Source: Aegicerativicinus sediminis
GTDB taxonomy: Bacteria > Bacteroidota > Bacteroidia > Flavobacteriales > Flavobacteriaceae
Direction of reading: 5' to 3'
DNA length: 64,000 nt
NCBI RefSeq assembly: GCF_015476115.1
Contig: NZ_CP064295.1
Coordinates: 3,032,001-3,096,000, forward strand
Positions within the stretch are counted from its first letter, which is position 1. The number at the start of each line of letters is the position of its first letter. The notes beneath the pieces are model-generated. The model saw only the letters and a list, made by a program, of their open reading frames with translations. It searched no databases and had not been told where the DNA came from. Position numbers and translations under genes: made by a program. Positions 51,782-54,644 of this stretch are shown in pieces.

Positions 51782-52495
51782 TTACAGGTGTGATAAAGCG
51801 AATAAATAACCAAGGCTTACCAGTATGGCAATTCCGAAACTTAAAAGTGTACCTATCAATATATATTCTGTAAGTTTTCGGTGTTTTGCTTCTTTCAAAT
51901 CGCCAAATCGATATACGGATTTTGCTGTAATCAAAAATCCTACCGCCTCCCAATGTCGAAAAACTATAAAGGTAAAAACCAATAAACGCTCCAAAATACC
52001 TATGTATTTACCTGCATCCCTCAGTGAGTCATTTTCATCGGTTAATTCATCTATTTTCCATTTACTGAAAATTGTTTGCAATATTAGAGAAGTAGGCTTA
52101 GTTAAGAAAAGTACAGCAAGAAGAAGGGTAAGATTATTCTCGTTCAATAGCTCAGAGATTTGAAATGTATTTTCTGAAATAAAATAGTAAGCCAATAGTA
52201 TTATTAAAAGATGAGCCGCTTGATCTATAAAAAACAAAACTCTTTTGTTGGAATCGTTCTGTAAGTTGGCCTTCAAGCCATCAAAAAGGAAATGTGTAAA
52301 GGCAATGAATAAAATCCATTTCCAAAGCTTTATATCCCATAATATGAGGAATAATAAAACAATGTGAATAAGAACGTGGAGATATAGTTTAGGTGACTTT
52401 AATTTTTTTTGTTGCTTTTCTATTACCCAATGTAGTGGTTGAAGCAAAAAATCACCAATAACATGGGCGAGTAGCAGTTTAATTAATAAAATCAT
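51782..52495 (-). CDS. DUF3307 membrane protein, partner of SatD
   Basis: 237 residues, with about six hydrophobic segments. The opening LIKLLLAHVIGDFLLQPLHW and the later FIAFTHFLFDGLKANLQ carry the conserved HxxxDF/Q and H...D residues of DUF3307, which suggest an intramembrane polar or metal site. Its ATG overlaps the SatD stop by 4 bp (ATGA), so both proteins are made from one message. DUF3307 is of unknown function. The steady pairing with SatD suggests that SatD controls the membrane protein or the reverse. Confidence 0.88.
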   Translation of the reverse strand: MILLIKLLLAHVIGDFLLQPLHWVIEKQQKKLKSPKLYLHVLIHIVLLFLILWDIKLWKWILFIAFTHFLFDGLKANLQNDSNKRVLFFIDQAAHLLIILLAYYFISENTFQISELLNENNLTLLLAVLFLTKPTSLILQTIFSKWKIDELTDENDSLRDAGKYIGILERLLVFTFIVFRHWEAVGFLITAKSVYRFGDLKEAKHRKLTEYILIGTLLSFGIAILVSLGYLFALSHL

Positions 52496-53103
52496 AGGAA
52501 CTTTTTTAATTTGGAGTTATACATCTTGTCAAGGGCAAAGATTTCATCGAGATTCGCCCGCTTTTGCCTTTTGCTCACCGCATTTTGACTAGTGCCTATG
52601 AGTTTTGCGAGTTCAGTTTGTAGCATATTTGGGTTCTCTATGGTTAATTTCACAACTTCGGCCGAATTTACAGTCCAATTATCTATACCGATTAACAACA
52701 GTTTAAAATACAAGTTTATTTCATCGTTGAAAATTGGATTGTCAGATTTTAATTTTAGGTTAGTTTTTTCCTTTTTTAATTGCTCTAATGTCTCTCCTGA
52801 ATAAACAAAGGCAGGGCCATTAGATTCACTGACATCTTTTCCTTGATGTTCTTTGTTTCCTAGCCCTATTGCAATGCGAATATCAAGGTCTTTTATGGTT
52901 TTAATACAGGCTTTTATATAAATTGCTGCCATAAAAGCTTTCCCTGGATTTCCTATTTCCAATTGGAAACTGTCACCCCTGTAAATTGACCAAAACTCTT
53001 CTTTGTTAAGAAAATTTAAGGCAATTTTTAACCTGTCCAACCAAATAGAAGGCGCTGCTATTTCTTGTGATTTAATTATGTCTCCTGTAAGAACAGCAAT
53101 CAT
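52492..53103 (-). CDS. SatD-family protein with C-terminal helix-turn-helix
   Basis: 203 residues. The N-terminal ~120 residues carry VLTGDIIKSQ (Asp8) and IYRGDSFQLEIG (Asp44), then AFMAAIYIKACIKTIKDLDI, RIAIGLGNKE and GPAFVYSGETLEQLKKE. The order resembles class III nucleotide cyclases (FxD, then GD, then R-x-x-IG-x-x-x-G, then G-x-x-V-N-x-A-x-R-L) but lacks the Asn/Arg pair. Residues 161-182 (LQTELAKLIGTSQNAVSKRQ) are a helix-turn-helix. SatD was named in Streptococcus in an acid-tolerance operon; its activity is unknown. The gene is preceded by a consensus promoter interlaced with palindromes and is coupled to DUF3307. Confidence 0.88.
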   Translation of the reverse strand: MIAVLTGDIIKSQEIAAPSIWLDRLKIALNFLNKEEFWSIYRGDSFQLEIGNPGKAFMAAIYIKACIKTIKDLDIRIAIGLGNKEHQGKDVSESNGPAFVYSGETLEQLKKEKTNLKLKSDNPIFNDEINLYFKLLLIGIDNWTVNSAEVVKLTIENPNMLQTELAKLIGTSQNAVSKRQKRANLDEIFALDKMYNSKLKKFL

Positions 53104-53210
53104 TATTCCTGAAAAATATACTTTTTTATAATATTCCCTATTTAAGGAATAAAATTAAATATTCCTTATAAAAGGAATATCAAATATAGCTCGTATATTC
53201 CGGAAATCAA
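53104..53210 (-). promoter_or_regulatory. satD promoter with three TTCC/GGAA palindromes
   Basis: On the minus strand TTG (53208-53210), a 19-bp spacer and TATATTTG (53181-53188) match the full Bacteroidota consensus. A TTCCGGAA palindrome (53198-53205) sits inside the spacer. ATATTCCTT-4-AAGGAATAT (53159-53180) covers the expected start site, TATTCC-8-GGAATA (53132-53151) lies in the leader, and a further TATTCC half-site (53104-53109) touches the start codon. Confidence 0.8.
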
Positions 53211-53213
53211 AAT

Positions 53214-54563
53214 TTAATTAAGCAAATCAGTAATCATTTCATCTTGATCATCAGCATCTTCGGCCCTTCTTAAGAGATTTTCATTAATGTTTTTGCTTGC
53301 CTTTGCCCCCAATTTCTTTAATTTTTCTACTCGCTTCACTAAGTTGCCTCTTCCAGTTAATTTCTTCATAGCGCCTTCATAACTGTTTTGGACAGTTCCA
53401 ATTTGTTTGCCAACCTTAATCAATTCATCTGTTAGATTGGTAAAACTATCGTAGAGATTACCCGCTTCAGTGGCAATTTCTAGCGCATTCTGTCTTTGCC
53501 TATCGTTTTGCCACAAATTGTCAACAAGCCTTAATGCGGCAAGAAGTGTAGCAGGGGTAACGATGATAACTTGCCGATCAAAAGCCTGTTCATACAAATT
53601 GGGTTCGTGTGCTGAAGCAATGGCAAATGCAGGCTCGATAGGAATGAACATAAAAACCGTATCTGGACTTTCATCAATAAGATATTGATAGTTCTTGGCG
53701 CTCAATTGCTCAACATGTCTTTTAATAGATCCTATGTGTTGTTTCAAGTGAATTTGCTTTTGTTCCTCGTCTTCTTCGGAAACAAAACGTTCAAAGTGAA
53801 CTAACGATACCTTACTGTCGATAATCATTTTTTTTCCGTCAGGGAGATGAATAAGGACATCTGTTTGTAATCGTTTTCCATCTTCTGCGGTGTGGCTGTC
53901 TTGCAACGTATACTCCCTGTCTTTTTCAAGTCCAGATTTTTCAAGAATTCTGGTTAAAATCAATTCACCCCAATTTCCTTGCATTTTGCTGTCACCTTTG
54001 AGGGCTTTGGTAAGATTGTCGGCATCCTTACTCATTTGCTGATTCAATTCAGCTAAAGTTTTTATCTGTTCCTTTAGTTCGCTATGCCGCCCTATACTTT
54101 CTTTGTTGGTGTCTTCCACTCGCTTTTCAAACCCTTTAATCTTTTCTTGAAGGGGATTGAGAAGAATCTCTAGGTGTTCTTTGTTTTGCCGCGTAAATTT
54201 TGAAGACTTTTCATCTAGAATTTTATTGGCTAAATTCTCAAACTCCTTAGTAAATTTTTCTTGCAGGTTTTCTACTTCCTTTTTCTGTTCCTGTATTTTG
54301 GTTTGAAGATTTTCAAACTCAGTATTTCGGGTGGCCAATTCAATGTCAACCTGACCTTTTTCCTGTCTTAATTTTTCTTTTTGGAGTTCAGATTCAGAAA
54401 TCTGGTCCTTTAAATCTGAAATTTGCCGCTCAAATTGTATCTGACGTTCGTTTATTGCACCAATTTCAGACTTGTTTTTCAGTCTACTAAAAACAATTCC
54501 GATTGCTGCACCGATACCAAATGAAAAAATTATTGAAATAAGAAGGGTTAAAGATTCAGACAT
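53214..54563 (-). CDS. rmuC: DNA recombination protein RmuC
   Basis: 449 residues from the ATG at 54561-54563 (MSESLTLLISIIFSFGIGAA). An ATG 12 bp upstream is possible but less likely. One N-terminal membrane helix is followed by a long coiled coil (about residues 30-170) and the RmuC nuclease-like core: MQGNWGELILTRILEKSGLE, DGKKMIIDSKVSLVHFERFV and FMFIPIEPAFAIA. RmuC limits inversions at short repeats and is proposed to be a PD-(D/E)xK-type nuclease (the E of WGE, the D and K of IDSK). It is transcribed alone. Confidence 0.93.
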   Translation of the reverse strand: MSESLTLLISIIFSFGIGAAIGIVFSRLKNKSEIGAINERQIQFERQISDLKDQISESELQKEKLRQEKGQVDIELATRNTEFENLQTKIQEQKKEVENLQEKFTKEFENLANKILDEKSSKFTRQNKEHLEILLNPLQEKIKGFEKRVEDTNKESIGRHSELKEQIKTLAELNQQMSKDADNLTKALKGDSKMQGNWGELILTRILEKSGLEKDREYTLQDSHTAEDGKRLQTDVLIHLPDGKKMIIDSKVSLVHFERFVSEEDEEQKQIHLKQHIGSIKRHVEQLSAKNYQYLIDESPDTVFMFIPIEPAFAIASAHEPNLYEQAFDRQVIIVTPATLLAALRLVDNLWQNDRQRQNALEIATEAGNLYDSFTNLTDELIKVGKQIGTVQNSYEGAMKKLTGRGNLVKRVEKLKKLGAKASKNINENLLRRAEDADDQDEMITDLLN

Positions 54564-54644
54564 AGAAAACAACAAATTTTACCAAAGATAAATTTATTGA
54601 ATCTAAATTCTTGGGCTAATTGGTTGAAACTTATTAAATGATTT

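Follow-up and report, generated by a model that had tools for sequence, protein, structure and literature searches.

Helix-turn-helix regulators with an operator recognition code are a known kind, described for the LacI and MerR families. In the MerR family (PMC5045206), and in the LacI family as cited there, operators are palindromic and specificity is shifted by a few residues, a likeness apparently shared by the SatD proteins considered here. Correlated protein-DNA positions in the MerR family concentrate in the recognition helix (PMC5045206), and positions 1, 2 and 6 of a recognition helix face the major groove and matter most for recognition (PMC5045206). The only paper we found naming the SatD family gives it a role in acid resistance, by annotation (PMC10326533). 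An operator or regulator role for SatD was not found in the open-access literature searched, from which preprints and most subscription papers are missing, and the same literature yielded no phased or mixed arrays of the sort described below for SatD. A sequence-only reading of the locus, made without searches, knew of no described SatD operator. Here we analyse a 64,000-nucleotide stretch of the Aegicerativicinus sediminis genome ("the window") in which an array of palindromes precedes satD. We consider it very likely that SatD binds this array and regulates the satD-DUF3307 operon, although no binding or expression data are available and repression is inferred. The assignment rests on array geometry, uniqueness, covariation with residue 178, held-out prediction, promoter phase and operon synteny, all of which are shown.

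The satD gene (52492..53103, minus strand) encodes a GGDEF/cyclase-fold N-terminal domain (about residues 1-120) and a C-terminal helix-turn-helix (recognition helix 173-182, key residue K178). It overlaps by 4 nt with a DUF3307 gene (51782..52495, minus strand), and its upstream neighbour on the same strand is rmuC (53214..54575, minus strand); the Pfam names of the three genes are SatD, DUF3307 and RmuC. Between the end of rmuC at 53214 and the start of satD at 53103 lie 110 bp that hold the promoter and the palindromes. Our test for a SatD-DUF3307 operon, a DUF3307 homolog directly downstream of satD, was met in 165 of 168 loci, the gene not being found there in L059, L186 and L193. The operon is a trait of the present locus set and lies outside the Pfam definition of SatD. 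An RmuC homolog directly upstream of satD was found in 36 of 169 loci. The DUF3307 protein of the window carries eight invariant H/D residues (H11, D15, H40, H44, H68, D72, D91 and H95) and its model is mostly helical, which suggests a metal-binding membrane enzyme; no solved structure matched its fold at E <= 0.001. PHROG family 2470 (membrane protein, moron category) matches DUF3307 at 8.8e-14; tblastn searches of phage records with the window DUF3307 protein and with SatD returned nothing at E 1e-3. A reading of satD-DUF3307 as a defence system was dropped, PADLOC giving only weak matches (E 0.026 and worse).

All elements upstream of satD are described on the minus strand. A promoter of the Bacteroidota type, TTG-N19-TATATTTG, occupies 53181..53210, and its spacer contains TTCCGGAA (53205..53198). 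Downstream of it, the repeat ATATTCCTT-N4-AAGGAATAT (53180..53159) encloses palindrome A (TATTCCTTTTATAAGGAATA, 53160..53179), a full 20-bp site of the form TATTCC-N8-GGAATA. Palindrome B (TATTCCTTAAATAGGGAATA, 53132..53151) has the same form and follows at a spacing of exactly 28 bp. Another exact 28 bp past the GGAATA of palindrome B lies a right half-site GGAATA (53104..53109), which abuts the satD ATG at 53103 and whose left partner is degenerate. On the upstream side, a degenerate unit (53196..53207) consists of ATTTCC, an in-phase left half-site, and an adjoining GGAATA that is out of phase; together they contain TTCCGGAA, the TTCC of which keeps the 28-bp phase. The sequence-only reading had described the promoter, TTCCGGAA within its spacer, the arm repeat over the start region, a further TATTCC/GGAATA pair in the leader and the half-site at the start codon, and each of these held; the strict 28-bp phasing that unites both palindromes, the start-codon half-site and the TTCC of TTCCGGAA was absent from it.

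The array is unique in its genome. The exact pattern TATTCC-N8-GGAATA occurs at 2 places in the 4.09-Mb genome, both upstream of satD. With up to 2 mismatches there are 356 matches, compared with 373 for the reversed control pattern, so that there is no enrichment elsewhere and no sign of a wider set of sites; a genome-wide SatD regulon was therefore rejected. Scanning the 64-kb window for paired sites 28/29 bp apart gave a score of 7.0 upstream of satD, the next best being 2.4. Among 198 relatives the exact pattern is present at least once in 89, in some at satD and in others elsewhere, and the control pattern occurs in many too.

We found SatD in 82 of the 198 relatives and used 81 upstream regions (L054, cut by a contig end, was excluded). 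Inverted repeats with 6-bp arms peak in these regions at a spacer of 8, i.e. in a 20-bp frame, with 118 occurrences in 57 of the 81 regions, compared with 6.4 +/- 2.7 in 60 shuffles (maximum 14) and 5 in the first 180 bp of the satD genes. When sites were picked without any spacing constraint other than no overlap, 117 of 136 neighbour intervals measured 28 or 29 bp, as did 146 of 185 in the held-out loci introduced below, again with unconstrained spacing. Autocorrelation over 169 upstream regions has its top lag at 28 (0.438, mean 0.317), followed by lag 56. Inverted repeats at the regulator's own promoter that exceed chance and keep their geometry were one criterion for an operator, and it was met. 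The half-site is TAT followed by letters specific to the lineage: TTCC, TCAC/TCAT, TCGG/TCGT, TCTG, TWAG, TTAC and others. The check proposed in the sequence-only reading, conserved GGAATA pairs upstream of orthologs in Flavobacteriia, accordingly fails in its literal form, as the letters are not conserved and only the geometry is kept. Letter conservation would mislead as a test because the half-site letters change along with the protein; we dropped it, since many orthologs without GGAATA retain the geometry.

For the comparison of proteins and sites we added the best 80 of at least 575 relatives in named genomes and 30 loci from a phylum sample, giving 192 loci (177 with a tblastn match to the SatD queries and 15 without), of which 3 were too short; 169 different proteins were kept. 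The array caller, blind to the protein, required at least 2 sites at a spacing of 28/29 bp that scored beyond the 99% level of a Markov null. Arrays of 2-6 sites were called in 135 of 169 loci and in none of 169 gene bodies of equal length. The caller admits only a spacing of 28/29 bp, so the called arrays themselves are no evidence for the period. No array above threshold was found in 34 of the 169 loci; 15 of these come from the phylum sample and as a group show lag 29 and a 17-bp frame, and the other 19 show a lag-28 peak as a group. More distant SatD relatives, those of the phylum sample (L166-L195), carry other palindromes (TTCAAC-N7-GTTGAA, TTTAACT/GTTAAA, GTTTCAT/GAAAC) with a group lag of 28-29 bp, so phased arrays may predate this SatD branch; this closer inspection was rough, several gene starts not having been found. 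In L186, one of the loci in which DUF3307 was not found downstream, the 140 bp before satD hold three copies of TTTCACTTTTTCTGCAA, a tandem repeat that is direct rather than inverted.

The lineage-specific letters of the half-site follow the SatD protein encoded next to it. With mutual information computed over all protein columns, residue 178 is the top column for bases 4, 5 and 6. It accounts for 0.71 of the base-5 entropy, and residues 175 (0.38) and 174 (0.34), which lie in its helix, come next; beyond residues 160-190 the highest value is 0.27, and the median over columns is 0.06. The margin is narrower for base 6 (0.54 for residue 178, 0.47 for 174 and 0.44 for 146). K178 goes with TATTCC, E/D178 with TATCG or TATCT, Q/L/H178 mostly with TATWAG, S/T/N/M/G178 mostly with TATCA, and R178 with TATTAC or TATCAC. 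Lysine paired with C (G on the opposite strand), glutamate with G (C on the opposite strand) and glutamine with A fit classical side-chain preferences. This letter rule fits 130 of the 135 arrays of the first set, which is a fit and no test. Counted by half-site, 730 of 876 agree with the residue class, compared with 197 +/- 28 for shuffled residues. Covariation of the letters with recognition-helix residues of the adjacent regulator was a further criterion for an operator, and it was met.

Shared ancestry could in principle produce such an association, and several controls bear on it. In 400 simulations of the bases along a tree of the N-terminal domain (helix-turn-helix omitted), no column reached the value observed for residue 178; for base 5, the largest simulated value at column 178 was 0.81 bits, the observed value being 1.38. 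By simulation z-score, residue 178 ranks first for base 5 and second, after the nearly constant helix-turn-helix column 166, for bases 4 and 6. This tree requires a minimum of 18 changes of base 5. We also compared pairs of proteins sharing over 60% identity across the N-terminal domain: where base 5 differs, so does residue 178 in 607 of 610 pairs, and where base 5 is shared, residue 178 differs in 174 of 581. These pairs are not independent. An independent-pairs sign test gave directions nearly always as expected, but it lacks power, since supported branches are scarce in the N-terminal-domain tree: only 1-2 pairs lie on such branches and no significance is reachable.

The rule was then applied to held-out loci, having been fixed before any new sequence was examined. 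Of at least 86 new places without a locus, 80 were retrieved; G596, which has an internal stop, and G610, G636, G782, G815 and G818 were left out. Of the 109 new loci, 29 had already been retrieved when the rule was fixed and 80 were fetched later; 17 proved to be duplicates or already seen, leaving 92. Arrays were called in 83 of these 92 loci (gene-body control 0), with none above threshold in the remaining 9. The rule was right in 76 of the 83 arrays, wrong in 4 and without prediction in 3; shuffled residues gave a mean of 22.7 right and a maximum of 37 in 2000 trials. The misses are T/A178 with TATATGC-type half-sites (4), K178 with TATTACC (2) and A178 with TATCG (1). The held-out loci share their family with much of the first set, and the prediction is therefore out-of-sample but not phylogenetically remote. 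Over the 218 arrays of both sets, base 5 is C in 51 of 55 K proteins and G or T in 55 of 55 E/D proteins; it is A in 63 of 63 Q/L/H, 28 of 28 R/S/N/M, 6 of 8 T and 4 of 6 G proteins, and is not A in 3 of 3 A178 proteins.

Exceptions to the rule include K178 with TATTACC (L017, L247, L296) and once with TATAAG (L080), S178 with TATAAG (L079), G178 with TATCG/TATTG (L021, L041), and T/A178 with TATATGC, A occurring once with TATCG. L237, L267, L269 and L295 form a further code class, in which A or T178 accompanies TATATGC-type half-sites. Asymmetric sites were seen in L011, L116 and L040, with TATCAC on the left and a TATCCT-type half-site on the right (R178), or TATTAGC on the left and TATCAC on the right (Q178); these could conceivably be intermediates between codes.

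A different regulator, e.g. a global factor, might bind the array, with residue 178 of SatD merely hitch-hiking. In favour of this, binding by SatD lacks direct demonstration. However, a global factor would have sites elsewhere, whereas exact sites are found here only and matches with 2 mismatches are not enriched; the array accompanies satD also without an RmuC neighbour (RmuC is present at 35 of 135 array loci); and the coupled columns 178, 174 and 175 cluster in the recognition helix of SatD itself. We regard this explanation as very unlikely. The proposal of the sequence-only reading, an operator bound by SatD's own helix-turn-helix in autoregulation, is supported by the residue-178 covariation, the tree simulations and the held-out loci, with binding and repression remaining inferred.

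For the promoter, the match in the window alone is weak evidence, as 3 kb contain 11 sigma-70-type sites (E. coli-type consensus) compared with 10.3 +/- 3.9 in shuffles; it is the comparative phase of the -7 box that supports it. The motif TAnnTTTG is the sigmaA -7 box in a flavobacterium (PMC9723704). Within 200 bp upstream it occurs in 91 of 135 arrays, compared with 6 of 135 gene bodies, and its start falls on position 18 of a site, numbering from 0, in 83 of 104 cases. The held-out loci give 55 of 83 arrays (gene bodies 5) and position 18 in 50 of 56 cases. In the window, the unit in the promoter spacer is degenerate and the -7 box has phase 19, compared with the commonest phase of 18 in relatives. 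The overlap of right half-site and -7 box at a fixed phase points to competition with RNA polymerase.

SatD might instead bind the array and activate, or switch between activation and repression. A palindrome is situated immediately upstream of the -7 box, which falls at the right edge of that palindrome; spacer-binding activators of the MerR family also act from such a position. Moreover, 44 of the 91 arrays have no site starting near or past the last -7 box. Against activation, the full sites of the window and the start-codon half-site are all downstream of the -7 box, and 47 of the 91 arrays have at least one site starting near or past it; an occupied -7 box and leader are typical of repressors. 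Since the distance of the array from the -7 box varies, activation is not excluded, but we think it unlikely.

A further explanation is that the palindromes act as RNA, i.e. as leader hairpins forming an attenuator or an RNA-binding site, and not as a DNA operator. Indeed, the 79-nt leader (53104-53182, minus strand) folds at -21.4 kcal/mol, compared with -11.2 +/- 2.7 kcal/mol for shuffled sequences (z -3.8). Any inverted-repeat array would, however, be expected to fold in this way. Sites in one array share their arm letters (identity of bases 4-6 is 0.73 within and 0.35 between arrays), which separate hairpins would not need, and these letters track a recognition-helix residue. In addition, the 44 of 91 TAnnTTTG-bearing arrays in which no palindrome starts near or past the last box would have their sites outside its transcript. 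The RNA reading was rejected as very unlikely because the arms are common to the sites and track the protein. The leader could form one long RNA hairpin, either as a by-product of the array or as a second layer of control.

The window SatD matches the PF16264 profile over residues 5-185 (E 5.1e-6), its 26.7 bits falling slightly below the curated cut-off of 29; 24 of the 30 members of the SatD alignment match it at E up to 1, and matches over the cut-off occur in 70 of 395 sampled genomes of the phylum. Its AlphaFold2 model (mean pLDDT 96.6) places the helices of the helix-turn-helix at 162-169 and 173-182, so that residues 178 and 174 are predicted to be positions 6 and 2 of the recognition helix. 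The criterion that the N-terminal part adopt a GGDEF / class III cyclase / Cas10 palm fold was met, residues 1 to about 120-130 being predicted by the model to do so: Foldseek found the cyclase Ma1120 (E 2.9e-4), and structural comparison gave Z 10.1 for the GGDEF domain of DosC (4zvg; rmsd 2.6, 117 aligned) and Z 8.9 for mCpol (9pd0; rmsd 2.4, 102 aligned). Y-family DNA polymerases score nearly equally (Z up to 8.9), and the fold alone therefore cannot name the subfamily. Neither D8 in strand 1 nor D44 in the (R)GD(S/E)F hairpin varies in alignments of 30 and 44 proteins, and G43 of the hairpin is invariant in the 30-member alignment. The criterion of metal-binding acidic residues is met by D8 and D44, metal binding being inferred from their position. 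A nucleotide ligand or product of the palm domain is plausible, ligand and enzymatic activity being unproven.

Taken together, the array is in our view very probably the operator through which SatD regulates itself. One dimer of the protein would bind each 20-bp palindrome through the C-terminal helix-turn-helix, bases 4-6 of TATNNN being read mainly by residue 178, with K reading TTCC in the window. Several dimers would sit side by side over promoter and leader with a strict 28-bp period (29 bp in some lineages). They would thereby cover the -7 box as well as the start region and repress the satD-DUF3307 operon. The N-terminal GGDEF/class III cyclase-like domain would probably sense (or make) a nucleotide that lifts or adjusts this repression. 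Physical binding, dimers, repression, cooperativity and the nucleotide ligand are all inferred.

Twelve arrays include one or more sites whose class disagrees with that of the protein; in 8 of them, the proximal sites agree with the protein but the distal sites depart from it. These 8 comprise L105, L109, L119 and L135 (K178; distal TCA, proximal TTCC/TGCC), L002 (G) and L095 (T; both distal TTCC, proximal TCA), L096 (E; distal TTCC, proximal TCG) and L034 (Q; distal TCTG, proximal TWAG). The reverse pattern is found in L087 and L088 (K178; distal TTCC, proximal TCAC); L017, L021 and L079 among the flagged arrays are plain misfits to the rule, and L003 (M) has one extra distant TTCC site. In an RmuC tree (SH-aLRT values in brackets), L105 and L109 fall within the T/N clade (97), as does L135 (96); L096 is sister to a TTCC/K lineage (98) and L003 to a K lineage (98), and L119 groups with L009, likewise a K lineage (100). 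With the exception of L119, these placements are as expected if distal sites retain the former specificity.

Replacement of the satD allele was considered as the cause of mixed arrays. The DUF3307 proteins of L119 and L135 are close to that of L092 (87 and 80% identity), while residues 1-165 of their SatD are at most 64% identical to any compared row except each other, and the SatD grouping {L119, L135, L131} is rejected by the DUF3307 and RmuC data (AU p 2.7e-6 and 3.7e-103). In these two loci, SatD seems to have been exchanged while DUF3307 stayed; recombination is not shown for the other mixed arrays. Several points count against replacement: the SatD data do not firmly reject the flank groupings (p 0.185, 0.062), the flanks do not reject the SatD grouping of L105/L109 (p 0.243, 0.065), SatD support for joining L131 is only 89, and the flanks of L119 disagree with each other (RmuC with L009, DUF3307 near L092). 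The groups for these topology tests were named after the trees had been inspected. As a general cause of mixed arrays, allelic replacement is only partly supported and was not adopted. A bolder reading sees SatD as a nucleotide-sensing, perhaps nucleotide-making, palm-fold repressor acting cooperatively on a 28-bp-phased array, with its code under repeated turnover: lineages would change satD and the promoter-proximal operators together, in some cases through a recombination event that breaks within the array, so that distal sites still carrying the older specificity persist as fossils (L105, L109, L119, L135, L096, L002, L003, L095, L034). We offer it tentatively, as somewhat less likely than not. 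The mixed arrays resemble an operator caught in the middle of a change of specificity, and how regulator and operator change together without loss of control thereby becomes experimentally approachable.

A little-studied Bacteroidota family thus gains a likely function, as autoregulator of a membrane-protein operon, together with an operator and a recognition code at the level of single residues, which one point mutation could put directly to the test. Compared with GGDEF, cyclase and Cas10 palm domains, SatD shares the fold but is small and fused to a DNA-binding helix-turn-helix; this combination suggests a nucleotide signal that would be new for the satD-DUF3307 operon. Unlike the MerR and LacI families, in which family searches do not place it, SatD is associated with a strictly phased 28-bp array whose exact copies lie at one locus in the genome and whose letters differ between close lineages; the lock and key of SatD and its operator have apparently been redesigned repeatedly in evolution.
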